Position numbers and translations under genes: made by a program
Shown: positions 19,111 through 50,360 of the stretch, piece after piece
How the letters are laid out: every line of letters begins with the position of its first letter
Position numbering within the stretch: the first letter of the stretch is position 1
Notes under the pieces: generated by a model
Told to the model about the DNA's origin: nothing
The model's database searches: none
Seen by the model: only the letters and a program-made list of their open reading frames with translations
Source: Marivirga sericea
GTDB taxonomy: Bacteria > Bacteroidota > Bacteroidia > Cytophagales > Cyclobacteriaceae
DNA: 64,000 nt
Assembly (NCBI RefSeq): GCF_900177665.1
Contig: NZ_FXAW01000002.1
Span: forward strand, 248,001-312,000
Reading direction: 5' to 3'

Positions 19111-19172
19111 TTTAAATAAACACTTTTTAGTGCGTTATGATTTATAAAATTCGGTGTTTGATGTACGAAATT
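19111..19172 (-). promoter_or_regulatory. Shared promoter motif upstream of the AraC-HMA gene (copy 1)
   Basis: Plus-strand bases 19146-19172 contain GTTTGATGTACGAAATT, matching the consensus CTTTGATGTAYGANATT, with a less conserved left half. It begins 58 bp from the start codon at 19088. A weak -7-like TTTATTTA on the minus strand (19111-19118) lies 27 bp away, poorer than at the other four copies. Confidence 0.6.
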
Positions 19173-19220
19173 ATTGGCTTATACGGTTTGATGGTTCACT
19201 ATTTTTATTCAATGAAAATA

Positions 19221-19661
19221 CTACGAAAAAACAATTTTACGAGCGCATATAAAACTCAGTATTGGATTGACTATAATAGCCAGGAATGGTGACAGTCCTA
19301 TATCTAAGAAAGGTACAACAGGCATTCTTTCATTGTAGCTCCAAAAGTCTAGTTCTACAGCCACCCACTCTGCTGTTAACGAGACTAAGCTGGCCATTAT
19401 GAGGACGATTAGCAATATTTTAAAATTAAAATTTCTAATCCAGTACTTGTCTTTGAGGACAACAGCAACAAGGCCGTATATGATGAATGTGAGTACAACA
19501 TCTCCAATCGTGCATCCGAGGAAGTAGATGCTTTTCATAAAGAGATTGTACTCATTATATAAACCGGCATGAAGGTTTTCCCAGATAAAGTTCAGAACGA
19601 AAGCTATCAGCGCCATCCATGTTAATAAACTTTTAGCTTTAATTGTCTTAGACTCCTCCAT
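19221..19661 (-). CDS. Four-helix integral membrane protein (paralogue of 52393-52911)
   Basis: A 146-residue protein with about four transmembrane helices. Conserved points are AFVLNFIWENLHAGLY in TM1, GDVVLT in TM2, KYWIR at a loop, and EW...FWSYNERMP followed by GLSPF near the C-terminus. The protein at 52393-52911 repeats this pattern (AFVLNFGWEVAHGFLY, YWIR, WSYADTMP, GLSP), so the two form a family. Buried Glu, His and Trp residues could bind a cofactor or metal. I do not recognise a function. A terminator-like hairpin lies between this gene and the operon upstream. Confidence 0.65.
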   Translation of the reverse strand: MEESKTIKAKSLLTWMALIAFVLNFIWENLHAGLYNEYNLFMKSIYFLGCTIGDVVLTFIIYGLVAVVLKDKYWIRNFNFKILLIVLIMASLVSLTAEWVAVELDFWSYNERMPVVPFLDIGLSPFLAIIVNPILSFICARKIVFS

Positions 19662-19671
19662 GTTTAAAGTT

Positions 19672-19702
19672 CAGGAATGGCTTTAATGCAATACCATTCC
19701 TG
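19672..19702 (-). terminator. Hairpin closing the 12-gene operon
   Basis: CAGGAATGG (19672-19680) and CCATTCCTG (19694-19702) form a perfect 9-bp stem around a 13-base loop. It lies 11 bp beyond the stop of the minus-strand gene at 19714. The next gene starts only 10 bp further on, so some read-through into it is possible. Confidence 0.7.
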
Positions 19703-19713
19703 CTATTCTGATT

Positions 19714-20667
19714 TTACAGTGATTTCACCTCAAAAGAAACCTTCAGCTTTTCCCATACGATAGTTACTTCTGCTGTTGAATTGCCCGTTTCATTCACCGC
19801 ATAGGTAAGCGCTTCCTGGTTTTCTGATAGTTTCTCAGGGTTCACTTTTATTCTTACTACATCAAGGGATGGATCATAGTCATCACTCATGTGCTGATCC
19901 CAGTTTTTATTGATGATCAACGTCCATTCCTTTTCACCCGGAATAGTGAAAAAACCATATTTACCGGCAGGAACTTTGGTACTATTGATCTCTACATCTT
20001 CAGAAAAGTTGATGGCTGTTGCTCTGTGCGCGCCCGTGGCCCACACTTTATCGTATTCTACCAGACCTCCCCAGATTGTTCTCCCTCGCACACTTGGGGA
20101 AGAATAATCAATATGTATATGTGTATTTCCTGCATTTCCCATAGCTGCCGTCTTTGGACTCTTGGGTTTAGGCTTATCATCATTTACAGCACCATGTGCA
20201 GCATGATCAGTTGCGACCTTCTTACAGCCTCTGGAAAACTGTAAGTGAACGATCTTCCACATATCACCTTCTACTTGCATGGAAAGGGTCACCAATCCGG
20301 CAGAATTGATCTGTTGGCCTTGCATTTCGCCCTTAATCAAATAATTGCCTCGCAATAGCGCCATTTCTTTGTTAACCAAGGATTCAGCTATTTCGATATC
20401 GAAGGTCATGTTTGCCATTTCTTCAATTTCTTTTCCCAAATGACCGTCTCTATAGTGCTCCCAGGAATCATCAACCGATCCCTGTTCGTATATTTTTGCT
20501 TTTGGAGAGAAAACTGCATTCAACGGCTCTAAATTTTTATCATTTACTGAACTGACAAATAAGTCCAGCACTTCGTTGGCTGTATTTTGGGGTTTGACTG
20601 AATCATTGCAGGAAAACATTAATCCTGATAAAGCCAAAATAGTGGTGGTAAATAATTTTTTCATCAT
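19714..20667 (-). CDS. Lipoprotein with NTF2/SnoaL-like and DUF2911 domains
   Basis: A 317-residue lipoprotein (lipobox ending LMFSC20). Residues 30-150 resemble a SnoaL/DUF4440 cone fold (VLDLFVSSVNDKNLEPL, FSPKAKIYEQG). Residues 180-317 are DUF2911, with IDYSSPSVRGRTIWGG, WATGAHRATAINFSEDV and GKYGFFTIPG as family hallmarks. The DUF2911 family is common in Bacteroidota envelopes and has no proven activity. A related SnoaL-type lipoprotein without DUF2911 lies at 60965-61468. This is the last gene of the 12-gene operon, 24 bp after the aldolase and just before a hairpin. Confidence 0.8.
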   Translation of the reverse strand: MMKKLFTTTILALSGLMFSCNDSVKPQNTANEVLDLFVSSVNDKNLEPLNAVFSPKAKIYEQGSVDDSWEHYRDGHLGKEIEEMANMTFDIEIAESLVNKEMALLRGNYLIKGEMQGQQINSAGLVTLSMQVEGDMWKIVHLQFSRGCKKVATDHAAHGAVNDDKPKPKSPKTAAMGNAGNTHIHIDYSSPSVRGRTIWGGLVEYDKVWATGAHRATAINFSEDVEINSTKVPAGKYGFFTIPGEKEWTLIINKNWDQHMSDDYDPSLDVVRIKVNPEKLSENQEALTYAVNETGNSTAEVTIVWEKLKVSFEVKSL

Positions 20668-20691
20668 AGTTACTGGTTTAGTTATAAATAG

Positions 20692-21744
20692 TTAAGCAAT
20701 AGTAATTTCTTTATCAAGGTAAACCTGCTGGATCAAATTAAGCAGTTCAATACCTTCCTTTCTGGGTCTTTGGAATGCTTTTCTACCCGAGATAAGGCCC
20801 ATTCCCCCGGCTCGTTTATTAATTACAGCTGTTTTTACGGCTTCAGCATAGTCCGAATCACCGGATGATGCCCCTCCCGAGTTGATCAGGCCTATCTTGC
20901 CCATGTAGCAGTTGGCTACCTGGTACCTGCAGAGATCAATGGGATGATCAGAAGTATACTTCTCATACATTTCTTTAGAAGTCTTACCAAAATCCAAAGC
21001 CTTGAAACCACCATTTGTTTCAGGCAGCTTTTGTTTGATAATATCTGCCTGAATGGTCACTCCCAGATGGTTGGCCTGGCCTGTGAGGTCAGCGGCTGTA
21101 TGGTAATCCTTGTCCTTGGTTTTGAAGGCTTCATTTCGGGTATAACACCACAAGATAGTGGCCATCCCTAATTCATGGGCATAAGCAAAGGCTTCTGAAA
21201 TTTCACGGATCTGCCGGTTTGACTCTGCCGACCCAAAGTATACGGTAGCCCCAATGGCGCAAGCTCCCATGTTCCAGGCATCCTTTACTGTTCCAAATAA
21301 GATCTGGTCATGCTTGTTGGGATAGGTTAGCAGCTCATTATGGTTGATTTTTACGATATAAGGAATTTTATGCGCATACTTTCGGGCGGTAAGCCCTAAT
21401 ACACCAAAGGTAGAGGCTACCCCGTTACAACCTGCTTCCAAACCAAGCTGTACAATATTCTCAGGATCAAAGTAGTCCGGATTGGGGCCAAAAGCACTCC
21501 CAGCGGAATGTTCAATGCCCTGATCTACCGGAAGAATTGACAAGTAGCCCGTGCCTGCCAGGTTACCACTATTATACAATCTTGATAGTGAATTAAGCAC
21601 CTGCGGATTTCTGTTTGTATTCAGAAAAACCTGATCCAGATAATCCGGTCCGGGTATGGTAAGCCTTGTTTTGTCAATGGTTTTACAAGTATGTTGCAGC
21701 AGATATTCTGCCTGATCTCCTAAGTATTCCGTTATTTCTTTCAT
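20692..21744 (-). CDS. fbaB: Class I fructose-bisphosphate aldolase (DhnA/FbaB type)
   Basis: A 350-residue TIM-barrel enzyme cleaving or forming fructose-1,6-bisphosphate through a Schiff base. The lysine in [10 protein letters not shown] is the likely catalytic residue. Other family points are [10 protein letters not shown] near residue 75, [15 protein letters not shown], and [13 protein letters not shown] plus [12 protein letters not shown], the phosphate-binding part. It is the bacterial/archaeal DhnA-type aldolase rather than the zinc enzyme. It lies in the 12-gene operon, 22 bp after the MFS gene. A scar of a second copy is present at 51972-52055. Confidence 0.93.
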
Positions 21745-21766
21745 CTCTGTTGTATTTAATGGTAAG

Positions 21767-22996
21767 CTAAGATTTATTGAGTTTTAGTCCCGGCATAATC
21801 AAAATAGTCACCAACAGCAGGGTTATCCCGATAATCAAAAATGGCCATGAGTTACCAAAAGAATAAATCCACATACCCAACAATGGCCCCAGCACCTGAC
21901 CGATGCTATTGGTAGAGGTTTGGGTGGATAAATAAGTCCCTGTATTATTTTCATCAATGAACGAGATCGAGGCTATGAGGTTTGGTGTTACCATTGCACC
22001 GCCTGTTGCAAAAATTATGATCATTGAGAATACATAGTAGTCAGCTTTAATCAATGTGAACAACCCCATCGATAAGGCAGCCAATAAAAAACCGATAATC
22101 AGTTGCAATTTCATGGGTAGTATATTTTCATCAAAACTGGCAAATAAAGGTTGCAAAATGGCCATTATCAAGCCACAAAGCATAAACCCAAGACCTACCT
22201 GTGTGGCATCAAAGATGAGTATATCTTTGGCGTACACGGAAAAAACAGTTTCAAATAGCGTAACAGCTAATTGTATTACTAATGATAGTAACAAGAGCTT
22301 TAAGAAGACAGTATTAGCCAACATCCCTGTTGTTTTGAGTTTCCCTTGCTGCTTATTTGTGTGCTGTTTCTTTGGTTTTTTGAGCCACAGCATAACGACT
22401 ACCAAAGCGACTATTCCTAACAAAGCGATGGCCAAAAAAGGTACACTGAACCTGTTCAAGAGGAAGTGGCCTATTGCTGTATTGAAATGAAGGTTGGTTT
22501 GTGCCAGGTACCCACCAATCATTGGCCCGGCAATGACACCCGCGCTGACAGCCACTCCTGACCAGGCTAGTATTTTTCTTCGTTGTTTACTATTTGTAAG
22601 GTCACTTAGGTAAGCATTACTCGCGGGTATAACAGCAGATGAGAATATTCCTCCAAGGATTCTTGCTACATATAGGATGGTCAAAGAATTTGCCAGCCCC
22701 GTCATAATCTGCATCAAGGCAAAGCCAGCCAGACCCATAACGATGAGCACTTTCCGACCGAAACGGTCGGATAGCTTACCCCAAACTACAGCAAATAGCA
22801 GTTGAAAAAATGGGTAAATACTGGTAAGGATGCCTATGTGATAGTTGATATTTTCGTCAGATACCACTCCGGACTTTAGAGCAAGTCGTTCCGTATAGTA
22901 GGGCAAAACGGGCAGCAGTACGCCATACCCACTCATTACTACAAAAATACTTAATAGGACTATAATTATCCCGCCAAGCATTTCACGATTACCCAT
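21767..22996 (-). CDS. MFS transporter
   Basis: A 409-residue protein with about 12 transmembrane helices. The MFS motif A is clear between TM2 and TM3 ([13 protein letters not shown]), and TM5 shows [14 protein letters not shown], similar to motif C of drug/H+ antiporters such as TetA-like proteins. The substrate is unknown. Its start codon overlaps the stop of the CopB gene by 1 bp, so it is translated from the same mRNA. An export role for a metabolite or toxicant in the stress operon is inference. Confidence 0.88.
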
Positions 22997-25083
22997 TATC
23001 TATTACCTATTTTCTTCTTCAACAGCTGCGCATTGATAGCCACTATAATGGTACTCAAACTCATAAATACTGCCCCAACCGCAGGTCCTAATACAAAACC
23101 AGAGGAATAAAGGACCCCTGCCGCGAGTGGAATCGCAATTACATTGTAGCCAGTAGCCCATATCAGGTTTTGTATCATCTTACTGTAAGTGGCTTTGCCA
23201 AATAAAATCAGATTGGCAATATCCTGTGGGTTGCTATTGACCAGAATAATATCTGCCGTTTCGGCTGCTACATCTGTCCCTGACCCTACTGCAATACCTA
23301 CGTTGGCTTGTGCCAAGGCTGGGGCATCATTAACCCCGTCACCAGTCATGGCCACAAACTCACCTTTGCCTTGGAGTTCTTTTACGATTTCCACTTTCTG
23401 ATGAGGAAGCACTTCAGAATAGTAGCCATCCAATCCTAATTTATCACTTACTGCTTTGGCTGTCTTTTCATTATCGCCTGTTGCCATTAACACTTTAATG
23501 TTGTTCTTCTTAAATACTTCGATGGCTTCAGCAGATTCTGCCCTTATTTCGTCTGCCAGTGCAATATAGCCTGCCAATGATCCATCGATTAAAACGAATA
23601 CTACCGTTTCTGCGGCATCACTGTAAGCATCTTCAGGAATAGTTATTTTTTCATCTCGTAAGTATCCTGGACTAACCACTTTTATGTTTTTTCCTTCCAC
23701 TTTTGCTTCCACACCTTTGCCAGTGATGGCATTGAAATTTTCTGGTTGAGGAATGGCCGTTTTACCTTCTTTTACCTTTTTCACAATACCGACCGCAATA
23801 GGATGTTCGGAACTTTGTTCTAACGCACTCGCCAGTCGTAAGACTTCATCCGAAGAGTATTGCTTATCAACTGATTCAACTCGTGTGACTCCAAAATCAC
23901 CTTTGGTCAATGTCCCTGTTTTATCAAAGAGTAAAGTGGAAATCTTTCGGGATTCTTCAAAAGCTGTTCTGTTCCTGATCAGCAAACCATTTTGTGCAGA
24001 AACTGCTGTGGATATGGCAACCACCAATGGGATGGCCAAACCGAGCGCATGAGGACAGGCAATAACCATTACGGTAACCATCCTCTCCAAGGCATATACA
24101 AAAGGAAATCCTAAGAACAACCAAGTGGCCAATGTTCCGAATCCTATTGCCAAGGCAATATAGGTAAGCCACTTAGCAGCACGATCTGAAAGGTTCTGCA
24201 TTTTGGACTTGGACTTTTGTGCTTCCTGGACCAGTGTGATCACTTTATTGAGGTAGCTGTCTTTGCCTGTATGTTCTACTTTTACTTTCAGTGAACCGTT
24301 TCCATTGAGTGAGCCACCAATCACTTTGTTTTCCAATCCTTTTTTAACAGGTTTGGATTCGCCCGTCAGCATGGACTCGTTCAGGTAGCTTTCGCCTTCT
24401 ACAATAATTCCATCGGCAGGCACTTTTTCTCCCGGTTTGATCAGGATTATATCATCTTTTTGCAGGTCTTCTAATTTTACCTCTTCAATACTATCACCTT
24501 TCACTCTATGTGCTTCTGAAGGCATCATACTCACGAGTAGTTGCAAGGCTTTTGAAGCGCCAAGCACGGATTTCATCTCCAGCCAGTGGCCGACAAGCAT
24601 GATATCAATTAAAGTGGCGAGCTCCCAGAAAAAATCCTCCCCTTCAAGGCCGAAAACTGTTGCAGAACTATAAAAATACGCAACACTAATGGCCATGGAT
24701 ATTAAAGTCATCATGCCCGGGGCACCTTCTTTCAACTCATCCTTCAATCCTTTTAGAAAAGGCCAGCCTCCGTAAAAATAAACTATGGTAGAGAGTCCGA
24801 ACAGAATATAAGAATTGCCCGGCAACAGCCAATCGTAACCTAAAAATCTCTGGATCATCGGAGAAAAAGTAAGTATTGGAATGGTAAGTACCAGGGATAT
24901 CCAAAACCGCTTTTTGAAATCTTCTATCATCATTTTGTGATGATCGTGTCCCATATCACCATGTCCGGGATTGTGGTCAGAATGACCAACATGGTCATGA
25001 CCTTCATGTCCGGAATGATTTTCATGCTTTTTACTTTCTTCGTGCTTATGGTGTTTGTGATTATGCTCTTTATGATTTTCCAT
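22996..25083 (-). CDS. copB: CopB-type P1B ATPase with histidine-rich N-terminus
   Basis: A 695-residue inner-membrane pump. Residues 1-50 are His-rich (HKHHKHEE, HDHVGHSDHNPGHGD) instead of an HMA domain. The ion-path motif is CPH at residues 343-345, the phosphorylated Asp is D387 in DKTGTLTKG, and TGDNEKTA and GDGVNDAPAL follow. CPH with a His-rich tail defines P1B-3 pumps that export Cu(II)/Cu(I)/Ag. It complements the CPC-type pump at 16105-18369. It lies in the 12-gene operon between PPK2 (12-bp gap) and MFS (1-bp overlap). Confidence 0.95.
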   Translation of the reverse strand: MENHKEHNHKHHKHEESKKHENHSGHEGHDHVGHSDHNPGHGDMGHDHHKMMIEDFKKRFWISLVLTIPILTFSPMIQRFLGYDWLLPGNSYILFGLSTIVYFYGGWPFLKGLKDELKEGAPGMMTLISMAISVAYFYSSATVFGLEGEDFFWELATLIDIMLVGHWLEMKSVLGASKALQLLVSMMPSEAHRVKGDSIEEVKLEDLQKDDIILIKPGEKVPADGIIVEGESYLNESMLTGESKPVKKGLENKVIGGSLNGNGSLKVKVEHTGKDSYLNKVITLVQEAQKSKSKMQNLSDRAAKWLTYIALAIGFGTLATWLFLGFPFVYALERMVTVMVIACPHALGLAIPLVVAISTAVSAQNGLLIRNRTAFEESRKISTLLFDKTGTLTKGDFGVTRVESVDKQYSSDEVLRLASALEQSSEHPIAVGIVKKVKEGKTAIPQPENFNAITGKGVEAKVEGKNIKVVSPGYLRDEKITIPEDAYSDAAETVVFVLIDGSLAGYIALADEIRAESAEAIEVFKKNNIKVLMATGDNEKTAKAVSDKLGLDGYYSEVLPHQKVEIVKELQGKGEFVAMTGDGVNDAPALAQANVGIAVGSGTDVAAETADIILVNSNPQDIANLILFGKATYSKMIQNLIWATGYNVIAIPLAAGVLYSSGFVLGPAVGAVFMSLSTIIVAINAQLLKKKIGNR

Positions 25084-25095
25084 AACGTCTATATT

Positions 25096-25827
25096 TTATT
25101 TGTCGGGGTACTCTAAATTAAGTTTTTCAAGCTGTTCGGCTAAAATTTTGGCAGCTGTATAATTACGAAACCAGCGCTTGTCTGCAGGGATGATATGCCA
25201 GGGCAAGTGATCACAGGCATTAAGTACTGTATGGTATACTTTCCTAAAATCATCCCATTGTTTGGGTATCAGTTCATCTTCCTTCGCGTACTTCCAGCGT
25301 TTGTGTGGTTTCGTTTTACGTTCTTCAATACGCTCTATCTGCTCATCAGCAGATATATGCAGGTAAAATTTTAATATCAATGTATTATTGGCCAGCAGGT
25401 GATGTTCCAGTTCGTTGATCAAATTGATACGGTGCTCCAATACTTCAACTGACAGGCTTTTATTGACGGTAGGCACCAAAATGTCTTCATAGTATGAGCG
25501 ATTAAAGACCTTGATCATTCCTTTTTCTGGAAAGTGGGGATATACACGCCATAAGAAATCATGCTTGACTTCATCTGCGGTAGGTTTCTTAAAAGATTTA
25601 ACCTGCACTCCTTGCGGGTTCATACCGCTAAAGGCATGACGGATTGTACCGTCTTTACCTGAAGTATCAAGACCTTGTAAGACGATAAGCATGCTGTACC
25701 TGCCATCAGCGTAGAATTTATTCTGCAACTGAAAAAGCTCTTTTTGAAGTTTTTTCAGTGTTTTTTTAGTTTCCGCTTTATCAGCATGCTCAGGTGGAAG
25801 GGTGGATATGTGATCTAGCTCAATCAT
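25096..25827 (-). CDS. ppk2: Polyphosphate kinase 2 family phosphotransferase
   Basis: A 243-residue cytoplasmic enzyme. Walker A is GLDTSGKDG at residues 52-60, followed by the PPK2 hallmarks PQGVQVKSFKKPT, RVYPHFPEKG and FNRSYYEDILV (about residue 108). The family transfers phosphate from polyphosphate to nucleotides, making NDPs or NTPs without ATP. Class (AMP, ADP or both) cannot be fixed here. The start overlaps the CxxC gene by 4 bp. Its place among nucleotide-salvage genes fits polyphosphate-driven recharging of nucleotides. Confidence 0.93.
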   Translation of the reverse strand: MIELDHISTLPPEHADKAETKKTLKKLQKELFQLQNKFYADGRYSMLIVLQGLDTSGKDGTIRHAFSGMNPQGVQVKSFKKPTADEVKHDFLWRVYPHFPEKGMIKVFNRSYYEDILVPTVNKSLSVEVLEHRINLINELEHHLLANNTLILKFYLHISADEQIERIEERKTKPHKRWKYAKEDELIPKQWDDFRKVYHTVLNACDHLPWHIIPADKRWFRNYTAAKILAEQLEKLNLEYPDK

Positions 25828-26147: not shown

Positions 26148-26160
26148 GATTTTTAAATTT

Positions 26161-27465: not shown

Positions 27466-27489
27466 ACTTTTCGTTCAACTATTTAGACA

Positions 27490-29056: not shown

Positions 29057-29060
29057 ATTT

Positions 29061-37036: not shown

Positions 37037-37042
37037 GTATCG

Positions 37043-41265: not shown

Positions 41266-41279
41266 TTTGCTTGATTTTT

Positions 41280-42077: not shown

Positions 42078-42098
42078 CTCTATCTATCACTTTTATAT

Positions 42099-42606: not shown

Positions 42607-42618
42607 AGTTTTGGTGTT

Positions 42619-43095: not shown

Positions 43096-43099
43096 ATCG

Positions 43100-43945
43100 T
43101 TATCTTTTAAGGTTAATACTTAGTATAGGTATATCGGCATGGTTTGCCAGGTTTTCGGTAATGCTCTTTCCTATCAGGTTAAAGAAGCCGGATCTCCCAT
43201 GTGTAGTTAATCCAATAAGGTCAGCATTTACAGATTCGGAAAACTTCAGAATGCCGCGTTCTTCATTTAGCGAATTGTAGATGTTGGTGGTGCAGGTTCC
43301 TCCTCGAGGACAGGTTTCGTGAAAAGCATGCATTTTCTCAAGGCTCCTGTCCGTCTCCTCAAATGAAAATGGGACATTGACATAAAGAAGATGCATATTG
43401 GATTCGTTGAGATCAGCGAACTTCACCACCGTTTTGAAGGGTTCTTTGACATCTTCTTCAAAATTGGATGCAAAAACCACATTTTTAACGGGCCACTTAG
43501 ACTTTTCTTTGATGATCAACACGGGTACAGTAGCATCTCTGAGGACCTTTTGCGCATTGGATCCGATAAACATTTCTTTTGCACCCGATGCACCATGTGA
43601 ACCCATTACTACAAAATCATGGTTATGATGTGGAATATGCTTCAGTATTTCTTCTCTTCCAACATCAAATACCAGAAACTGTTGTGCCTTCAGGCCCTTT
43701 GTTTCTGCTTTTTTTACTAATTTATTAAGCTCGTTTTTGGCATGCCCTATCTCTTTTAGGGTTTCGGGAAACCGTACTTCCTTCTCTTTATCTAGTTTGA
43801 CCCAAGGCACGGGCGTTATCTTTAAATGCAAAAAATGAATTTCCGCACCTGATTTTTCTGCTATAGCTATGGCTATATCAGCCGCCCGGTTAGCAGTTGA
43901 GGAAAAGTCGGTAGGTACTAAAATATTTTTCATAGATATATTCAA
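43100..43945 (-). CDS. Tandem universal stress protein
   Basis: A 281-residue protein with two Usp domains in tandem (about residues 1-145 and 150-281). The ATP-binding motif G-x2-G-x9-G appears as GSHGASGAKEMFIGSNAQ in the first and, in the second, as THGRSGFFNLIGKS. The ATG four codons later (MKNILVPTDFS) is an equally good start. Usp proteins are induced by starvation, hypoxia and redox stress. It lies 74 bp after the PII gene and 4 bp before the Met-rich lipoprotein. Confidence 0.9.
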   Translation of the reverse strand: MNISMKNILVPTDFSSTANRAADIAIAIAEKSGAEIHFLHLKITPVPWVKLDKEKEVRFPETLKEIGHAKNELNKLVKKAETKGLKAQQFLVFDVGREEILKHIPHHNHDFVVMGSHGASGAKEMFIGSNAQKVLRDATVPVLIIKEKSKWPVKNVVFASNFEEDVKEPFKTVVKFADLNESNMHLLYVNVPFSFEETDRSLEKMHAFHETCPRGGTCTTNIYNSLNEERGILKFSESVNADLIGLTTHGRSGFFNLIGKSITENLANHADIPILSINLKR

Positions 43946-44019
43946 ATTTTATCGACTACTTTGCTTAAGGTGATCCCTTAAAAGAAACCCAAAAAATTTC
44001 TTTAAATATCACTGTAGGA

Positions 44020-44361
44020 TCAATCCTTGTTATGTAAGTCGGGTTTTAAAGTTTTTACTTTGACCATATCACTAACCTCTGTGATATAAATAATGCCGTC
44101 CCCTGAGTGGGCTGTTTTTCCATTTTGATGTATAATCTGTAGTGCTGTCTTCACTTCCTTATCAGGTAAAACAACTTCCAGTTTTGCTATTTTAGCATGT
44201 GAAAATGGGTGCCGCAAAGACGGAAAATCCTTCCGTTCATCCGTGTAGTGCCCAGTTCCCTCTCCTTCAAAGACGGTTAGGCAACAAATTCCTTCTTCAC
44301 GCAAATGATTTACAATATCAGGTAATCGATTCGGCCTGACGAAAGCTTTAATTTCCTTCAT
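44020..44361 (-). CDS. P-II-family signal protein
   Basis: A 113-residue PII-fold protein: KEIKAFVRPNRLPDIVNHL at the start, a T-loop region (EGEGTGHYTDERKDFP) unlike that of canonical GlnB, FSHAKIAKLEVVLPDK, and HSGDGIIYITEVSD, the C-loop area that binds ATP/ADP. The divergent T-loop argues for a partner other than nitrogen enzymes, as in PII-like proteins beside metal-efflux genes. It overlaps the SHOCT gene by 4 bp, and a Usp gene follows. Confidence 0.85.
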   Translation of the reverse strand: MKEIKAFVRPNRLPDIVNHLREEGICCLTVFEGEGTGHYTDERKDFPSLRHPFSHAKIAKLEVVLPDKEVKTALQIIHQNGKTAHSGDGIIYITEVSDMVKVKTLKPDLHNKD

Positions 44362-44570
44362 TTTAACAAGGTCTTTTTTATATCTTCATATTCTTCTTTG
44401 CTGATCTCTCCTTTAGCGTATCTCTTTTTCAAAAGATCCAATGGAGTTTCCTTTTTCGTCTTTTGTCCGGGGATATCCCAAGGCGTGGCAAAAATCCAAA
44501 TCATAAAAATCACCCAAATCACCCACCAGATGATGTGCATGCCGCCATAATGTCCTTCAAACCAATGCAT
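44358..44570 (-). CDS. SHOCT-domain small membrane protein
   Basis: A 70-residue protein: residues 12-30 form one transmembrane helix (IIWWVIWVIFMIWIFA), and residues 42-70 form a SHOCT motif (PLDLLKKRYAKGEISKEEYED). SHOCT motifs are short oligomerisation segments of unknown precise role. It is the first gene of the long unit ending at 32989; the shared promoter motif lies 103 bp upstream. A second SHOCT protein is at 56071-56274. Confidence 0.75.
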   Translation of the reverse strand: MHWFEGHYGGMHIIWWVIWVIFMIWIFATPWDIPGQKTKKETPLDLLKKRYAKGEISKEEYEDIKKTLLK

Positions 44571-44639
44571 AATATCTATTTTTAAATTTTACTAACTTTT
44601 AAAATTCCAGTATCAAGCCACTACAGACTCGCACTTACT

Positions 44640-44699
44640 CAAATTTAGCATATTGTCCCGCACTGTATTTTTGATATCTTGTCTTTGATGTATGATATT
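44640..44699 (-). promoter_or_regulatory. Shared promoter motif upstream of SHOCT-PII-Usp unit (copy 3)
   Basis: Plus-strand 44673-44699 reads ATCT, TGT, then CTTTGATGTATGATATT. On the minus strand, 25 bp away, TAAATTTG at 44640-44647 is a perfect TAnnTTTG -7 element. The start codon at 44570 is 103 bp from the motif, longer than the 55-59 bp of the other copies. No -33 TTTG was seen between them. Confidence 0.75.
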
Positions 44700-44739
44700 T
44701 TGCAAACATCAGTCGATTTATTTTTATTCAGCTTCTATT

Positions 44740-44967
44740 TTACGCTGATGCGTTTGAAATATCTTCTTTAATGGTGTAATGTCCTGCTTTTTTTAGCTCG
44801 GCTTGTAATTCCTCAAGAGTAATGGGTTTGTTGAGGGTAATAACTGCACCCGGTGGACGCAATTGTATTTCCACATTTGAAACATCGGGGACTTGAAGCA
44901 ATGCCTTCTTTACACTGTTCACGCAACCGCCACAACTCATTCCTTGTAATTCATATCTCTTTTTCAT
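44740..44967 (-). CDS. HMA-domain metal-binding protein
   Basis: A 75-residue single HMA domain with GMSCGGCVNSVKKAL, Cys-Gly-Gly-Cys at residues 12-15. The rest keeps the ferredoxin-like pattern (VSNVEIQLRPPGAVITL, LEELQAELKKAGHYTI). It should bind Cu(I) or another soft metal in the cytoplasm. It follows the SDR pseudogene by about 98 bp, so it may have its own promoter. Downstream comes the shared motif of the next unit. Confidence 0.85.
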   Translation of the reverse strand: MKKRYELQGMSCGGCVNSVKKALLQVPDVSNVEIQLRPPGAVITLNKPITLEELQAELKKAGHYTIKEDISNASA

Positions 44968-45065
44968 GCTATTTGATTTTAGATTTTACTGTTTTTATTA
45001 TTGCCTTTTTTGCCTTTACTACTGAATCTCTTTTCTGCGTGTTTTTCTGATTTTCTAGCGCTACT

Positions 45066-45815
45066 TTATGCAAATACCCCTCCATCTAATCCCAATTGAG
45101 TGCCGTTGCAATACCTCGAATCGGCAGATGCTAGATAGATGAAAGCTTTCGCCACTTCTTCTGGAGTGCACAGGCGTTTCATAGGTGTAGCGTCTACCCA
45201 TTGTTTGCGTATTTTCTCAGGGGCTGCACTGAGCAAGGGTGTTTCAACATAATAGGATCACAGCGCATTTGCGCGAATATTCTGAGTCGCATATTGAATG
45301 GCTATATTTTTTGTAGTGCCAAGCACACCATGTTTTGCAGCAGTATAGGGTACCAATCCAGGTTCTGCTTTTAGGCCACCTAAAGAAGACATATTGACAA
45401 TTACTCCTCCTCCTTGTTTAAGGAATTGCTGCAGTTCATATTTTAGACAGTAGAATTGCCCTGTGAGGTTCACACTGATTATTTTATCCCAAACATCTTC
45501 TGGCATATCATGAATGCCGGAATAAGGGCTTCCAATACCTGCGTTATTAAAAGCTATATCAAGCCTTCCACATTTTTCAACCGTTAAATTAATAGCCTTC
45601 TTTACACTATTAACATCTGATACATCAATGGGTACGAAAAAGCATTTAGCACCCAATGCCCTAATTTCATTTAAGGTTTGTTCATGATCATTTCCAGGAA
45701 GATCTGCCACAACTACTGTGGCGCCTTCCCTTGCGGCTTCTAGTCCGGTGGCTTTTCCAATTCCAGAATTGGCTTCATTAAATAAACTTTCTGCTAATAT
45801 TTTTAGGTCATACAA
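45066..45815 (-). pseudogene. Short-chain dehydrogenase/reductase, in-frame stop and damaged N-terminus
   Basis: One frame reads through a TGA at 45258-45260. Before it stands ...NIRANAL, after it SYYVETPLLSAAPEKIRK and onward to GLDGGVFA-stop at 45066; intact relatives have NALCPGYVETP here, so a Cys codon probably became TGA. The cofactor motif is also damaged: relatives have TGANSGIG, here FNEANSGIG with the first Gly lost. The catalytic YTAAKHG and NNAGIGSP are kept. It was a classical NAD(P) SDR of about 250 residues. It lies 102 bp after a cytochrome gene. Confidence 0.85.
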
Positions 45816-45917
45816 TTTTATGTCTAAAGAAAAGAAAGCCTTTTCAATCGGAATTTTACAAGCAAAAATTTTAAAGTCTGATTTTGATTTGTTCTTCCAG
45901 TGGTTTAATTATTCTTA

Positions 45918-46235
45918 TTAGTTGGCTGATTTTAAAAATTCCAAAACTTTTTCTGCTTCCACTTTGGTTAGCTGTGCCCTTATCTCCATATGTTTGATTG
46001 CTACATCCCATTCTGTATCACTAAAAGTTGCTGGAGATGCCGTATTATGACATCTGATACAGGACTCTGCCCAGAGCTGGGCGCCACTTTTTTGCAAGAC
46101 ATATTCTGGTACTCCTTTGGCAAAACTCGTACTTTCAGTGCTTGTGGCATTTTGCTGCGTGGCGCATTTCGTAAAAATTATTGTCACAAAAACAACAACA
46201 GTAACTAATAATATTATTTTATTGATTTTTTTCAT
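45918..46235 (-). CDS. Small lipoprotein-type cytochrome c
   Basis: A 105-residue protein starting MKKINKIILLVTVVV (ATG at 46235). Its signal segment ends in FTKC, a likely lipobox, so it should be anchored at the outer side of the membrane. A single haem motif, ESCIRCHN, is followed by a helical tail (QLTKVEAEKVLEFLKSAN). The distal Met ligand may be in HMEIRAQ. It lies 11 bp after the porin gene and is probably part of the cytochrome-porin unit. Confidence 0.8.
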   Translation of the reverse strand: MKKINKIILLVTVVVFVTIIFTKCATQQNATSTESTSFAKGVPEYVLQKSGAQLWAESCIRCHNTASPATFSDTEWDVAIKHMEIRAQLTKVEAEKVLEFLKSAN

Positions 46236-46246
46236 GATTTTAAGTT

Positions 46247-47416
46247 TTAAAAGCCTAAGGTCCATTGAATATAAAAGGTATTTATATCCAGCGCTACGGA
46301 TGTCTCAGCGTCTTCAACATGCCCCCCGATTACGTTGTCTATCTGGTAAGCAAACTTGATAGCCGTTCTCCAATCAATCCAATAGTTGAGCCCTATTGCC
46401 AATTGCGTACTTTCAGATTCCCAGGGGGCTTCTTCTGGTGTATTTAAAGTGGAATAGCGTCCTACAAGCTCCAAATTTTTGACAAATTGGCTTGACCCAA
46501 AAGTGGGACGATAACCAAGCTGGAAGAAAGTTGAGTTGGACTGGTTGTCGAAAGTGTAGGATTCCATCACGCTATCTTCTTCAACTTCATAAGTTTGGTC
46601 ATCGATATTAATGAAGTTGAGCTGGCCTTTAAGGTCAATCACCCCGCCCAGAATGGATACTTTTCTTACGTAAGTCCAGTCAAAAGCATACAACAAGGCG
46701 CCAATATCTTCCAAATCAGAGTCGCGGTCACCGAGCTTGGCTGATTGAGCAGAAAAACCGATTTCCAACGACTGATCTCTGAAAGGGAACAGGCCTAATC
46801 GGCCACCTAATGCCTTGTTATTGTTGTTGTCCTCTTGACCTTCGTGCACGATCATTCCTACTTCGTCCGCTTCTTCTTCTCCATCCTCTATGCGAGGGCC
46901 GTTCATTACGTAAACTGAATAATTGAACTTCATCCCTGCCAGGTAAGATGCGCCCCTTAATTCCACCCCTAAATCTGAGGTTGGGAGAATTCCATCATGA
47001 CCATAGCCAAGTGGCACCGTAGGTAAGCGATTAATCCAAGACGGATGTAACCTATCGAAAAATATTCCAAAGGGAATTAAAATTTTACCTACTCTGATGT
47101 TTAGGTTGGGAGCGAGACTATAATTGAAGTTTGCATATTCTAACGCTACGTCAATCTCCCCATCCTCAACTGCAAATTCTAGTTCCGCCTCAAAAAACAG
47201 TTTGTCTGACTGTTTATATAAGAACAAAGGTACAAATCGTGCATTACCAAAGGTAGTTTCTTCGTCATTAGACATGAAGGTTGCATCTGAATAGCCACGC
47301 ATCAAAAATCGACTGTTACCTGGTTTGGGATCGAATAATTTCTGTTGATTTTGTGCCTTTGATTCAAATAACACAATTATAATCAACATGGAACTTAAAA
47401 ACCATCTATACTTCAT
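46247..47416 (-). CDS. Outer-membrane beta-barrel porin-like protein
   Basis: A 389-residue protein with a signal peptide (residues 1-21, ending SKAQ). The mature chain shows alternating amphipathic strands, for example FEAELEFAVEDGEIDVALEYA and NIRVGKILIPFGIFFDR, and ends with an aromatic residue (QWTLGF) as barrels do. The IRVGK..PFG pattern resembles phosphate-selective/OprP-like porins; the solute is unknown. It lies between two cytochrome c genes (gaps 12 and 11 bp). Confidence 0.8.
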   Translation of the reverse strand: MKYRWFLSSMLIIIVLFESKAQNQQKLFDPKPGNSRFLMRGYSDATFMSNDEETTFGNARFVPLFLYKQSDKLFFEAELEFAVEDGEIDVALEYANFNYSLAPNLNIRVGKILIPFGIFFDRLHPSWINRLPTVPLGYGHDGILPTSDLGVELRGASYLAGMKFNYSVYVMNGPRIEDGEEEADEVGMIVHEGQEDNNNNKALGGRLGLFPFRDQSLEIGFSAQSAKLGDRDSDLEDIGALLYAFDWTYVRKVSILGGVIDLKGQLNFINIDDQTYEVEEDSVMESYTFDNQSNSTFFQLGYRPTFGSSQFVKNLELVGRYSTLNTPEEAPWESESTQLAIGLNYWIDWRTAIKFAYQIDNVIGGHVEDAETSVALDINTFYIQWTLGF

Positions 47417-47428
47417 AAGTCAAACGTT

Positions 47429-47848
47429 TTATTTTTTCAGTGTTCTTAAATAGTTAACCAATTGCCACCTATTCTCTTCAGAAAGTGTGGCTTTGTAGGA
47501 TGCCATCGGTGCTCGGCCTTCTGTAATTTTCCAAAAAATGGCTCCGTCACTTTGGTCGTTGAAGGTCTTTGTGGTCAAGTTGGTTGGTTTTGGATTGAGC
47601 GCTGCACCAGCTACACCATCTCCTCTACCTTTATCACCATGACAAATGGTGCACATATTGGCAAAAATCTTTTTGCCAGCTTTGATGTCCTCAGAGCCTC
47701 CTTTATAAGGGTTTTTTAATGCATCAGCCTCTTTTGGAGCCTTCCATTCTACTGTTTGCTGAATACGTATAAATCCTACTATTAAAACAGTGGCTACGGT
47801 CAAAATTGAAACTTTCAAAAACTTAAACTCAAAATTGGTATGATTCAT
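47429..47848 (-). CDS. Membrane-anchored cytochrome c (class I type)
   Basis: A 139-residue protein with one N-terminal hydrophobic anchor (residues 11-28). The haem motif is ANMCTICHGDKGRGDG, with a distal Met in GRAPMASYKATLSEE, then WQLVNYLRTL, a complete class I pattern. It likely carries electrons in the periplasm. The shared promoter motif lies 55 bp upstream of the start, so it heads the cytochrome-porin unit. Confidence 0.9.
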   Translation of the reverse strand: MNHTNFEFKFLKVSILTVATVLIVGFIRIQQTVEWKAPKEADALKNPYKGGSEDIKAGKKIFANMCTICHGDKGRGDGVAGAALNPKPTNLTTKTFNDQSDGAIFWKITEGRAPMASYKATLSEENRWQLVNYLRTLKK

Positions 47849-47868
47849 AGTATTGCTTTTTATATTAA

Positions 47869-47929
47869 TGAATGTAAGTGAAAAAAAGGAGGTTCCTTTT
47901 TCGAAATCTTGTCTTTATTGTACGAGATT
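47869..47929 (-). promoter_or_regulatory. Shared promoter motif upstream of the cytochrome c unit (copy 4)
   Basis: Plus-strand 47903-47929 reads AAATCT, TGT, CTTTATTGTACGAGATT. It also forms a dyad, AAATCT with AGATTT, the clearest dyad of the five copies. It begins 55 bp from the start codon at 47848. TACATTCA on the minus strand (47869-47876) is a partial -7 element 26 bp away. Confidence 0.7.
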
Positions 47930-47942
47930 TAGATCATTTCTT

Positions 47943-48806
47943 TCAATCCCTTTTTTCATTAGGCTCATCTTTTAACTTATCAGAAAGCCTCCTTAAAAAC
48001 TCCCTGTTTTGAAGATTGCTATTGTCAATAAGTAGTCCTTTCAAGCCATCTTTTGTTTCTATACCATAAATGACAGACTTACCTGCTGCATCTTCATTTT
48101 CATCAAACCGGTAGAACTCTGAAATATTCAATTCCTCAATCTGAAAACTGGCGCACAAATCCTTGCATTCCACACAATCATCCTTTCTGTTGAAGTTATA
48201 GGTATAGCCCTTTTCTCTTAAATTGCCTAGGGCATCAGATAAGTTCTTGTAGTATCGGTTCTCGCTTCTCATTACTTCTTTATAATCAGTTACAGAAAAA
48301 CCAGTAACGCGCTTAAATTGGCTGGATAGGTAATGAACAGAACTGTATCCGAGCTTAAAAGCAATCTCACTTAAGTTAAGTTCATCATACTTTATAAGCT
48401 CTTTTACCCTATCCACTCTTTTGTTTATGTAGTAGGCCTCTATTGTAAGTCCTTCAATCTTTGAAAAGAGCTTGCTTAGAAAATTGTAATTTTTACCTAT
48501 TTCGTGTGCCAGAAAATCAGACAACATGATCTCTTTGGTAGATTTTTCCAGCATTTCTATATAATGTTGAATTCCAAGCTTAATCTGTTCCATCAGGATT
48601 TCTTCTTTGTCTTCAAGAAGTTCAAAGCCATAAGTATCTAATCTGGACGCAATTTTATCTTTGGTCAGGGTCTCAGGCACTTGTATTGTAGCATGGCCAA
48701 GCTGAATTGTTGAAATAAATGCTCCGAGTTCCTCTAATTCATTTCGTACAACCAGAATGCATCTCGGGCACACCATATTTTTAATATTCAGATTTAATGT
48801 TTTCAT
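47943..48806 (-). CDS. AraC regulator with N-terminal HMA-like and C-terminal CxxC domains
   Basis: A 287-residue regulator in three parts. Residues 1-75 are HMA-like with MVCPRC (Cys13, Cys16). Residues 95-185 are AraC double HTH (LNLSEIAFKLGYSSVHYLSS, FKRVTGFSVTDYK). Residues 188-280 match the small CxxC proteins at 25824 and 50371: SDALGNLREKGYTYNFN, DCVECKDLC (Cys211, Cys214, Cys218), EFYRFDENED, GLKGLLIDN. The fusion implies that the CxxC domain has a sensing or signal role. It is a longer paralogue of the regulator at 18516-19088. Confidence 0.85.
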   Translation of the reverse strand: MKTLNLNIKNMVCPRCILVVRNELEELGAFISTIQLGHATIQVPETLTKDKIASRLDTYGFELLEDKEEILMEQIKLGIQHYIEMLEKSTKEIMLSDFLAHEIGKNYNFLSKLFSKIEGLTIEAYYINKRVDRVKELIKYDELNLSEIAFKLGYSSVHYLSSQFKRVTGFSVTDYKEVMRSENRYYKNLSDALGNLREKGYTYNFNRKDDCVECKDLCASFQIEELNISEFYRFDENEDAAGKSVIYGIETKDGLKGLLIDNSNLQNREFLRRLSDKLKDEPNEKRD

Positions 48807-48835
48807 CTGTTATAGGGGTTAAACTTTTTCTGATC

Positions 48836-48934
48836 CTGGATTAAATCCAGTGAAGGAGTATCGACCGGTTAAAATCTTTGCTTATTGCCAAATGAATTAT
48901 TTCAACAATAATTTTTGGCCGGCAATACATTGCC
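48836..48934. promoter_or_regulatory. Two short dyads upstream of the AraC-HMA-CxxC gene
   Basis: CTGGATT-A-AATCCAG (48836-48850) and GGCAAT-AC-ATTGCC (48921-48934) are perfect short inverted repeats. The first lies 30-44 bp from the start codon at 48806. They are in the 232-bp gap that also holds a hairpin nearer 49039. Operator function is a guess from position; nothing else was recognised in the gap. Confidence 0.35.
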
Positions 48935-48977
48935 CTCGCAGAAAAAGTGATTAAGAATTATTGAAAAGAATAGAATA

Positions 48978-49026
48978 AGGCTGATAAGCTTGCGGAGTAG
49001 AACATGGCAAACTTCATGATCAGCCT
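48978..49026 (-). terminator. Long hairpin after the His-rich secreted protein
   Basis: AGGCTGAT (48978-48985) pairs with ATCAGCCT (49019-49026), and the interior adds AAG-TTGC pairing with GCAA-CTT, giving a long imperfect stem. Read on the minus strand it lies 12 bp past the stop at 49039 and is followed by a T-rich stretch, as in an intrinsic terminator. Confidence 0.6.
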
Positions 49027-49038
49027 AACAGATGAATG

Positions 49039-49506
49039 CTAATTGAGGAAGGATTGAATAAAAATACGAATATGGTTACCACTAACGGGTGGTGGCAAAT
49101 TGGTATATAAAAACGGGAGTAATTGTTTATTAAAGATATCTGCTTCAACATCTAAATTATAAATACGATAAAGCATTTGAAAGGCTGGAGCCTCAACTGG
49201 TGTTTGCTTCAACTCATATTTGATTAATGAGGCATACAGGTTATTCACTACTTCGTCACAGCACTCCTCCTCGTCAGCATCATGGCTATGCTTATCATCG
49301 TGATGATGATCTTTAGGGGCATTGTGATGATCATCAAGGTCATATACTTTTATTGAATGATGAACCATCTCATTAGTACTAGTTGGGTAATTGCCCCAAG
49401 AAATCACTCCAAAATTACAAAAAGCATCACAAACAAATACACTAATAAAACCTGTGAGGAGCAAGGTTACTATGTATTGTTTTATGTTGTGCAATTTTAT
49501 CATCAT
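49039..49506 (-). CDS. His/Cys-rich secreted protein, HYC_CC_PP-like
   Basis: A 155-residue protein with an N-terminal hydrophobic segment (about residues 10-27) acting as signal or anchor. A His/Asp stretch (DDHHNAPKDHHHDDKHSHD) leads to EEECCDEVVNNLYASL, and NLPPPVSGN lies near the end. The CC and PP landmarks resemble Bacteroidota HYC_CC_PP-family proteins, at modest confidence. It probably binds metal in the envelope. It lies 109 bp after the DUF2231 gene. Confidence 0.6.
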   Translation of the reverse strand: MMIKLHNIKQYIVTLLLTGFISVFVCDAFCNFGVISWGNYPTSTNEMVHHSIKVYDLDDHHNAPKDHHHDDKHSHDADEEECCDEVVNNLYASLIKYELKQTPVEAPAFQMLYRIYNLDVEADIFNKQLLPFLYTNLPPPVSGNHIRIFIQSFLN

Positions 49507-49615
49507 ACCAATAGAAGTGATAACTACTGCATAAATGTCGGTAAAAATCAGGTATAAATCAAATGATAAATGTTAAGTAAAAACATGATATAAGTCACTA
49601 TATTGACAAAAAATT

Positions 49616-50275
49616 TCAATGAGCATGTCCTTCTGTAGATTCAAGGAATTTGCCTTGCGGTCCTACCGCTTCTATATGTACCAGTTGTGCCCCGTAATGA
49701 CCGGTGCGCGACACCGCATAGCCGGAAGCAATAAGTAACAAGGCAACCACTGCTACAGCCCAACGTTTCTGTCTAAAAATAAATTGACTGACCGCCTGAG
49801 CCACAAAGCCGGCAATGCTCAAGTATATAGTCCAGTCGGCCCATAGATCATGCTGCGCAAGCACCTGTTTCGCATGCTCCGTTAAATCATGTGTGTGTGG
49901 GTGGAACGTTCTCCCTGAAAGATAAGCACCCAACGCACCTACTAAAACCATTCCCGTGATGACCCAATCTACTTCTTTTTTTAGGAGAATCACGTTAACA
50001 ATAGCTAAGACAGCTCCAATCAATAACAATACGATTGGGAAGTGAACCATAAGCGGATGCAGATTAGGGAAATCGTCCAGGTCTGCTGTGACTTTCTTAG
50101 TCTCATGCTCATCGTGTTCATGCTCCTGTTGTGCTTGTATATGAGAATAATCCACTTGGGGCTGCTCCAAATGTGTGGAATCTTCTTTTGTGCTTTTTTC
50201 ATGTTTCTCCCCTTCATGAGCAGAGAGCACAATGCATGACAACATGAAGTATAATAGTAGTCCTAATTTTTTCAT
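49616..50275 (-). CDS. DUF2231-type membrane protein with His-rich loop
   Basis: A 219-residue protein. A signal peptide (residues 1-18, ending LSAH) is followed by a His/Glu-rich segment to about residue 65. From NLHPLMVHFPIVLLLIG onward (the DUF2231 hallmark) there are four transmembrane helices. Loop histidines in GRTFHPHTHDLTEHAKQ resemble a metal or haem site. DUF2231 proteins are often next to cytochrome genes and may bind haem. The shared motif lies 59 bp upstream. Confidence 0.8.
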   Translation of the reverse strand: MKKLGLLLYFMLSCIVLSAHEGEKHEKSTKEDSTHLEQPQVDYSHIQAQQEHEHDEHETKKVTADLDDFPNLHPLMVHFPIVLLLIGAVLAIVNVILLKKEVDWVITGMVLVGALGAYLSGRTFHPHTHDLTEHAKQVLAQHDLWADWTIYLSIAGFVAQAVSQFIFRQKRWAVAVVALLLIASGYAVSRTGHYGAQLVHIEAVGPQGKFLESTEGHAH

Positions 50276-50299
50276 AGCCCTTCAATAATTAAGAAAATT

Positions 50300-50360
50300 T
50301 AAAGCTATGCCCTTTGCCTGGAAACTTCAGTACAAAATCTCAACTTAGATGTATAATATT
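50300..50360 (-). promoter_or_regulatory. Shared promoter motif upstream of the DUF2231 gene (copy 5)
   Basis: Plus-strand 50334-50360 reads AAAATCT, CAA, CTTAGATGTATAATATT. It begins 59 bp from the start codon at 50275. TAGCTTTA on the minus strand (50300-50307), one base off TAnnTTTG, lies 26 bp away. Confidence 0.65.

Follow-up and report, generated by a model that had tools for sequence, protein, structure and literature searches.

A putative AraC-type, metal-responsive regulon on a Tn7-like transposon of Marivirga sericea

Which protein, if a single one, controls the scattered transcription units of this locus that are preceded by almost the same short sequence? The initial annotation of the window (the whole analysed stretch of 64,000 nucleotides) described near-identical motifs of 27 bases before five units and attributed them to one activator, perhaps an AraC-HMA protein. 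Our computational analysis recovered the five sites at 19149, 32888, 44676, 47906 and 50337 (plus-strand pattern, zero to three mismatches). Their recurrence far exceeds chance: 0.04 sites are expected in the window, none of 100 shuffles yielded five, and random controls, which would have refuted the claim by giving as many, did not.

Architecture of the sites and of their promoters

In a matrix scan, these sites are the top five of the 127,936 window positions, the best non-site scoring 14.2, and all are oriented towards minus-strand genes. The 27-base motif is real, but it corresponds to a distal half-site plus the first bases of a proximal half-site. The entire site spans 33 bp and is a head-to-tail repeat with a 21-bp period (consensus AATnTCrTACAT...GATnTCrTAAAT). 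The self-match of the sites at offset 21 reaches 41/60 bases, compared with 28/60 at the next-best offset, and the direct-repeat score of a profile including a sixth site (see below) was reached by only 24 of 5000 column shuffles. The predicted operators and the units behind them are as follows.

16105..18369, minus strand: CopA-type Cu P-type ATPase (TIGR01511, E 5.6e-184)
19111-19118, minus strand: weak -7-like element TATTTAAA of the P0001 promoter
19140..19172, minus strand: predicted P0002-type operator before P0001, AATTTCGTACAT / AATTTTATAAAT, 21-bp direct repeat
19221..32826, minus strand: operon behind the 32879 operator, a presumed single transcript judging from gene order
32879..32911, minus strand: predicted operator of this ATP-cone/Mrr-led operon of 12-13 genes, -7 element TAACTTTA at 32852-32859
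42099..44570, minus strand: SHOCT, PII-like, Usp and DUF5676 unit
44358-44570, minus strand: 70-aa ORF, first of the SHOCT-PII-Usp unit, SHOCT-like by reading and not by library match
44667..44699, minus strand: predicted operator of the SHOCT-PII-Usp unit, -7 element TAAATTTG at 44640-44647
45918..47848, minus strand: cytochrome c, porin and a 115-aa protein without Pfam match
47897..47929, minus strand: predicted operator of the cytochrome c unit, -7-like element TACATTCA at 47869-47876
49616..50275, minus strand: DUF2231-like membrane protein, scoring under the Pfam cut-off
50328..50360, minus strand: predicted operator of the DUF2231-like gene, -7 element TAGCTTTA at 50300-50307

The promoter layout had been described correctly: the -7-like elements of four sites lie 19-20 nt past the 33-bp site, and the start codons follow at 55-59 bp in four cases (19088, 32826, 47848 and 50275) and at 103 bp in the fifth (44570). 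Among 48 site rows, which are related to one another and not independent, 37 have a -7 element (at least 5/6 matches, 17-22 nt downstream), against a shuffled mean of 7.5% and a maximum of 19%; the element is poor at the 19149 site, in the P0001 promoter, and at the MCO2 promoter. In a flavobacterium, the sigma-A box from -12 to -5 is reported to be TAnnTTTG (PMC9723704). Because this box is mostly found 19-20 bp beyond the site, the proximal half-site lies over the -33 region. A sigma-70 promoter scan is uninformative in this phylum. Between units, flanks and spacers are unrelated, but the two half-sites and the distance separating them are preserved. The operators of MerR-type regulators such as CueR are inverted repeats located between -35 and -10; here, a direct repeat lies upstream of the -7 element. 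By analogy, the arrangement of site and box is that of an AraC-family activator.

The whole-genome matrix scan suggested by the initial annotation, using the five-site model, retrieved one extra site in the 4.74-Mb genome among the best 150 of 2327 first-pass candidates. This sixth site (C15:320023-320057) is outside the window, before a CusABC-type efflux operon, and has an E of 0.003, the runner-up having an E of 0.24. Single half-sites with up to two mismatches show little excess genome-wide (145 matches vs 127 in a reversed control), the signal being carried by the full 33-bp site and restricted to one genome region. In the class- and family-wide scans, the best 17 candidates per genome were scored under stricter filters; as only the best first-pass candidates were scored in any scan, the site counts are lower bounds.

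The operon at 19221..32826 encodes ATP-cone/Mrr, a beta-CASP RNase, an AMP/thymidine phosphorylase, a PRPP synthetase, a small protein of the P0002 C-terminal family, an amino-acid permease, PPK2, a CopB-type Cu ATPase, an MFS protein, a DeoC/FBA-type aldolase and others. The predicted targets include CopA and CopB, both Cu ATPases, and a Cus-type pump. PII-NG genes have been reported to adjoin metal pumps (PMC7726332).

Two related regulators and the distribution of the sites

Two regulators of the same family are encoded in the window, together with relatives of one of their domains.

18516..19088, minus strand: P0001, 190-aa regulator of the P0002 family, leading a predicted target unit and lying upstream of CopA
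25827-26141: second stand-alone relative of the P0002 C-terminal domain
47943..48806, minus strand: P0002, 287-aa regulator, proposed activator of all six units
50371..50676, minus strand: stand-alone relative of the P0002 C-terminal domain (34% identity over 95 residues)

P0002 is predicted to consist of an HMA-like fold with a CPRC motif (residues 1-64), a helix linker, an AraC double HTH (~95-182) and a C-terminal alpha/beta domain (~189-276). The double HTH is matched by Pfam HTH_18 (E 5.5e-13) and by the DNA-binding domains of AraC, MarA and SoxS in Foldseek. The AlphaFold model (pLDDT 83 overall) displays an HMA topology and an AraC domain, residues 1-60 (pLDDT 88-96) adopting a beta-alpha-beta-beta-alpha-beta ferredoxin-like fold. 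This fold resembles MerP, Atx1, the PacS N-domain and GolB (Foldseek TM-score by target length 0.70-0.77), although the E-values of MerP, Atx1 and GolB are just 0.02-0.07. Cysteines C13 and C16 are invariant across 18 aligned regulators, giving the CxxC motif of HMA soft-metal chaperones, from which P0002 differs in being fused to a DNA-binding domain. Since the Pfam HMA model (PF00403) matches neither P0001 nor P0002 even at E<=1, we term them HMA-like by fold and not members of that Pfam family. P0001 is 41% identical to P0002 and its relatives are widespread in the class (206/395 genomes at E<=1e-15); an open-access literature search found no paper treating them as metal regulators.

The sites travel with P0002, which is therefore the likely master switch. 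All 11 of the 390 family genomes with a P0002 orthologue (at least 73% identity) carry at least two to six sites among the best 17 candidates per genome. By the same count, one of the remaining 379, with a P0002 relative at 53%, has two sites, and eight have a single weak match each. As these genomes share an inherited gene cluster, the 11/11 are not 11 independent events. Cyclobacterium lianum has at least seven sites at E<=0.1 in one scan and at least five at E<=0.02 in another, and the operator before P0001 is conserved there, in UBA1842 and in others. In the regions examined, 58 of 67 matrix matches are followed within 450 bp by a relative of an island gene. In 26 orthologous promoters, themselves chosen by motif, the half-sites are 77-100% identical to those of the window genome, whereas the 60 bp upstream are 30-57% identical. 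In the class-wide scan, 10 of the 394 other genomes each yielded a single weak site among the best 17 candidates per genome, which we read as chance. P0002 was sought in four of these: three (G272, G164 and G260) lack a match at E<=1e-10 and G336 has relatives at 43-44% only.

Sites are, on the other hand, rare near relatives of P0001, which fits P0002 and not P0001 as the protein that they track. Among the best 80 of 534 P0001-relative loci, one of which (L091) lacked upstream sequence, an upstream site was found only at L087 (P0001 at 96%), L089 and L090 (77%), with scores of 31-38; the M. atlantica locus L088 (94%) has none. Above a score of 17, the 80 loci give three matches; of 20 column-permuted controls, 19 gave 0-3 and one gave 18. 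Looser matches equal the controls.

The chief case in which this shared inheritance of the gene cluster is broken is Marivirga atlantica. This species has P0001 (95%), CopA (99%) and CusA (96%), and no P0002 orthologue (best relative 50%); it also lacks several target units. No site at E<=0.1 was recovered among the best candidates scored in its genome, and the best matrix score in the stretches examined (14.6) is at the level of the window's best non-site. M. atlantica does keep another element of the window.

18436..18468, minus strand: CopA promoter element resembling a 21-bp direct repeat, different from the 33-bp sites, candidate P0001 operator

The half-sites of this element match weakly, at 7/12 positions in the window and 9/12 in four other genomes (G397, G398, G399 and G635). 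The Cus promoter of M. atlantica contains half-sites with 11/12 matches at 21 bp, followed by TATATTTG. Searching for this repeat in the window and the relatives' stretches gave five rows with at least 19/24 matches, itself included (24/24 by construction), and two of them point to CopA promoters, in G635 and in G662, a resemblance that is suggestive but weak. A family-wide 21-bp rule for P0001 relatives was discarded, as the repeat searches gave no clear excess. Offset 21 had the most raw matches (130), overlapping and many coding-looking; with a -7 element required, it had 9 vs 16 at offset 22, and in a set of 54 distinct promoters both offset 15 and offset 26 outperformed 21.

Alternative readings and the proposed mechanism

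P0001 could itself be the activator, autoregulated through the site preceding its own gene. Both proteins have a similar second HTH, and of the 11 family genomes with sites, 8 have a P0001 orthologue of at least 74%. A point against P0002 is that no site precedes its own gene in the window scan. This idea is unlikely, given that M. atlantica has P0001 without any site among the best candidates scored, and that G644 and G656 carry sites (P0002 at 80% and 73%) with P0001 at only 52% and 48%; in G643, which is 86% complete, no close P0001 was found. Moreover, the CopA promoter beside P0001 has the different repeat kept by M. atlantica. Copying of one promoter among the units of a mobile element, with no shared regulation, would explain why the six sites are in one element and in one orientation, but is very unlikely because half-sites and spacing are kept between unrelated flanks and spacers, and because the half-sites are conserved where the regulator has diverged to 73% or, for two sites, 53%.

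A Crp/Fnr-type or other palindrome-binding global regulator would suit the position, which matches a class II activator, and in part the targets, as by our reading Usp, PII and cytochrome c are reminiscent of regulons for oxygen limitation; the distal half-site core is also loosely palindromic in some copies. We consider it highly improbable, and reject the palindrome: on the six-site profile the inverted repeat is at chance level (2850 of 5000 column shuffles), in contrast to the direct repeat, the sites are co-inherited with P0002, and finding six sites, all on one transposon, among the best 150 of 2327 candidates of the genome is unlike a global regulator.

The single activator initially proposed is therefore supported by the direct repeat, the -33 position, the conservation of the promoters and the co-inheritance. 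Its proposed AraC-HMA identity is also supported, and co-inheritance narrows it to P0002. We consider it likely that the six sites are operators of this AraC-family activator, which would act in a metal-triggered, class II-type manner within a self-contained transposon regulon; binding, activation and the identity of the metal are what we infer here. From co-occurrence, the regulator of the sites is most likely P0002 and not P0001, and P0001 is probably one of its targets, giving a cascade. Two AraC-type DNA-binding domains would occupy the half-sites in head-to-tail order, 21 bp or two helix turns apart. The proximal half-site, at about -43 to -32, would replace the -33 element and could thereby recruit the sigma-A RNA polymerase to TAnnTTTG. 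The likely signal would be a soft metal ion, most likely Cu(I) or Ag(I) judging from the target genes, that binds to the CPRC loop in the N-terminal HMA-like fold; P0002 would then switch on P0001, CopA, CopB, CusABC, cytochrome c, PII/Usp and the metabolic genes together.

A mobile regulon compared with known systems

The window and the sixth site belong to a single mobile element, on which the regulon would be self-contained.

Contig C15:~227705-326388: Tn7-like transposon of ~98.7 kb, inserted after glmS, with the whole window (1..64000) inside

Its genes include TnsA, TniB/TnsC, TnsD+TniQ and TnsE by Pfam. The end of glmS (named from its sequence) is ~30 bp before the left end, and TTTGAACA blocks are repeated at both ends in inverted orientation. 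In two congeners (G567 and G588) the site is empty, glmS being directly followed by the right-flank gene (90-91% identity). The element thus resembles Tn7-like transposons at attTn7 in its TnsA, TniB-type TnsC, TnsD/TniQ and TnsE genes and its insertion directly after glmS. It differs in its cargo, a copper-type regulon with its own activator alongside restriction and defence genes, and in the 699-aa protein in the place of TnsB (L033:781-2880), without Pfam match at E<=0.01.

AraC at araI1-I2 and MarA/SoxS act at class II promoters with half-sites in head-to-tail order, spaced by about 21 bp and near -35. P0002 and the six sites share with AraC/XylS activators the double-HTH domain and half-sites arranged head to tail, two helix turns apart, with the proximal one over -35/-33. 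In contrast, the predicted sensor of P0002 resembles an HMA metal chaperone in fold and not a cupin arm domain, the protein has an extra C-terminal alpha/beta domain, and the promoter is of the Bacteroidota type with the TAnnTTTG box. Known bacterial copper sensors include CueR (MerR type), CsoR, CopY and CusRS. The class of genes controlled would be the same (CopA-type ATPase, Cus efflux, multicopper oxidase), whereas the DNA-binding fold and the operators, here an upstream direct repeat, are different.

Tentatively, and with slightly less confidence than an even chance would imply, we suggest a two-tier transposable soft-metal regulon in Bacteroidota, in which P0002 is the master of the six units and P0001 reads the CopA repeat. 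If true, a second input for sensing would come from the Cys-containing C-terminal domain of P0002 together with the two stand-alone relatives of that domain in the island. The HMA-AraC paralogues would then be metal activators of one family, alike in repeat geometry and different in half-site, with the Cus promoter of M. atlantica as a third example. The proposal names a regulator, spells out its operator and predicts six target promoters, and M. atlantica offers a natural near-knockout, so that copper-type defence regulation in this phylum becomes directly testable. In this locus, a Tn7-like element of a marine bacterium would carry a metal response along with the activator that controls it, tied to polyphosphate, nucleotide-salvage and respiratory genes.

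Putative tandem operators and their promoters

The five near-identical sites proposed in the initial annotation are all present (window positions 19149, 32888, 44676, 47906 and 50337), each within a 33-bp putative operator. A 33-bp matrix built from them places them at ranks 1-5 of the 127,936 window positions, and each site omitted in leave-one-out scans ranks 4th or 5th, directly behind or among the training sites. The operator is real and tight. The 27-base motif first described is also real, but it is only part of a longer repeat structure. Read in the direction of the genes, this is AATnTCrTACATCnAA, then five bases, then GATnTCrTAAAT; the first block recurs as the second 21 bp further on (41/60 bases identical at offset 21; next-best offset 28/60). 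Using the six sites of the genome, one row per promoter, the direct-repeat score was reached by 24 of 5000 column shuffles, and an inverted repeat was at chance level (2850/5000).

The genome-wide scan proposed earlier was performed with R1, a sequence-only model of the five window sites, on the 4.74-Mb genome, scoring the best 150 of 2327 first-look candidates. It recovered the five sites (E 4e-6 to 5e-5) and an additional one at C15:320023-320057 (C15 being the contig; E 0.003), followed by the gene of a 139-aa protein and then those of an RND pump, an outer-membrane channel and a CusB-like protein; beyond these six, the best match among the scored candidates had an E of 0.24. The half-site alone is hardly enriched in the genome (145 matches, 127 in the reversed control).

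Among 48 site rows from 12 genomes, 37 carry a TAnnTTTG match of at least 5/6 at 17-22 nt beyond the 33-bp site (shuffled sequence: mean 7.5%, largest 19%), and the best match begins 19 or 20 nt past the site in 36 of the 48 (12 genomes); the -7 part fits poorly at the promoters of P0001, a 190-aa regulator, and of the multicopper oxidase gene MCO2. TAnnTTTG is described as a sigma-A box, at -12 to -5, in a flavobacterium (PMC9723704). With the box so placed, the proximal half-site would span roughly -43 to -32 and the distal one -64 to -53, and therefore the operator would overlay the position of the absent -33 element. AraC-family activators use head-to-tail half-sites that are spaced by two helix turns and reach the -35 region.

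Sites in other genomes precede the same kinds of units, and a relative of a gene from the metal-defence island lies at most 450 bp downstream of 58 of the 67 matrix hits in fetched stretches. When 26 orthologous promoters were compared in register with our six, mean identity per unit was 88-100% in the distal and 77-97% in the proximal half-site, values that are partly circular because the promoters were chosen by motif; outside the half-sites, it was 44-78% (bases 33-50) and 30-57% (60 bp upstream). The predicted targets are P0001 with CopA behind it, a CopB-type Cu ATPase, CusABC, cytochrome c with porin, and PII/Usp, together with PPK2, AMP/thymidine phosphorylase, PRPP synthetase and a beta-CASP RNase. 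Six further genomes add MCO2 to the predicted targets, a seventh (G618) shows a weak match there, and one adds a GAPDH-like gene. PII-NG proteins adjoin metal pumps in other systems described in PMC7726332. Our best guess for the signal of the predicted regulator is copper or silver.

Co-inheritance of the sites with P0002

Two candidate regulators, sharing 41% identity over 181 residues, are encoded in the window:

47943-48806, minus strand: P0002, 287-aa HMA-like AraC regulator
18516-19088, minus strand: P0001, 190-aa relative

A P0002 orthologue (73-100% identity) occurs in 11 of 390 family genomes, all 11 of which have two to six R1 matches at E<=0.02. By tally, 370 of the other 379 have none; a single weak match occurs in each of eight, and two occur in G633, whose P0002 relative (53%) retains a portion of the C-terminal domain. 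Fisher's p for this co-occurrence (1.7e-20) overstates independence, as these genomes share the gene cluster, and the split cases are more telling. M. atlantica, a congener, has P0001 (95%), CopA (99%), an ArsP-type permease (92%), multicopper oxidases (91-93%) and CusA (96%); it has no P0002 orthologue (best relative 50%) and no site in the R1 scan, and the 40 kb fetched from it showed no ATP-cone, PII or cytochrome unit. Conversely, G644 and G656 (P0002 80% and 73%) have sites, and P0001 relatives at only 52% and 48%. These splits show that the sites go with P0002. Although 206 of the 395 genomes sampled across the class have a P0001 relative, sites were limited to our own genome, with six, and to ten others, each with a single weak one. 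The initial suggestion of a single activator, perhaps an AraC-HMA protein, gains strong computational support, and one HMA-like AraC protein is predicted to bind and activate at all sites.

A Tn7-like element after glmS

The regulon lies wholly inside a Tn7-like element of about 98.7 kb (C15:227705-326388, window 1-64000 included; L033:234-7798, L339:13839-15674), which explains why it is local in the genome. Genes for TnsA, TniB/TnsC, TnsD/TniQ and TnsE directly follow glmS at the start of the region, a 699-aa protein in the place of TnsB matches no Pfam model, and TTTGAACA blocks at the left end (C15:~227705) recur inverted at the right end (C15:~326388). The congeners G567 and G588 display the empty site, with the right-flank gene (90-91% identity) directly after glmS. 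Besides the metal island, the cargo comprises type I restriction, GmrSD and an Avs2-like gene, whose start is probably before the window given the limited profile match:

142-2361: defence protein resembling Avs2, matched over the later portion of the profile (PADLOC E 5.9e-223)

Elsewhere in the window, the translations of two overlapping minus-strand ORFs (13677-14572) look as if a single gene of the cation-exchanger type had been split between frames. Another ORF, for a short-chain dehydrogenase (45258-45815, TTG start), is probably truncated; Pfam profiles match it only from position 5-13, and the matches stop short of the profile ends.

TnsA follows glmS in G643 (91%; P0002 99%) and in G605 (83%), which has neither P0002 orthologue nor site. 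In G618 (P0002 93%), the regulon begins about 5 kb past glmS, and the 1.5 kb examined contained neither TnsA nor end repeats. Outside the genus, all nine genomes with a located glmS carry the regulon either on a different contig or over 100 kb from glmS, so it predates this element or also moves by other means. End-repeat-like blocks (TTTGGACA or TTTGAACA) also follow glmS, without this regulon, in the Marivirga genomes G546 (L349), G632 (L345) and G605 (L344), only the last of which showed a TnsA. Several Tn7-like elements seem to use the site after glmS.

P0002 and its paralogues

An AlphaFold2 model of P0002 (60 sequences, mean pLDDT 83) displays a beta-alpha-beta-beta-alpha-beta fold with a CPRC loop at residues 2-64, followed by a helix linker, a double-HTH domain and a C-terminal helix plus sheet. 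In Foldseek, the DNA-binding part matches AraC, MarA and SoxS; the N-terminus matches MerP, Atx1, PacS and GolB with target-normalised TM of 0.70-0.77, but E of ~0.02-0.07, and the Pfam HMA model does not match P0002. The C-terminal domain, a family named by neither NCBIfam nor Pfam, has two stand-alone relatives in the island:

47943-48254: unnamed Cys-containing domain of ~95 residues, C-terminal end of P0002
50371-50676: stand-alone relative, 34% identity to that domain
25827-26141: second stand-alone relative

A P0002 orthologue is also found in a MAG labelled Thalassovita (G397:C15:622-1479, L204; stop near the end, open frame 283 aa), a label that looks wrong for a Bacteroidota island.

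Different 21-bp repeats occur at two other promoters:

18436-18468: direct-repeat-like element, CopA promoter, kept in M. atlantica
L270:10855-10887: direct repeat, M. atlantica Cus promoter, AAATTTTATAAC-N9-AAATTCTATAAC, then TATATTTG

They may serve P0001 and a third paralogue of 193 aa as operators, in a possible cascade. The two repeats suggest that paralogues share geometry and differ in half-sites; wider searches did not bear out 21-bp repeats as a general rule for them. The system governed by P0002 would represent a new variant of AraC-type regulation.
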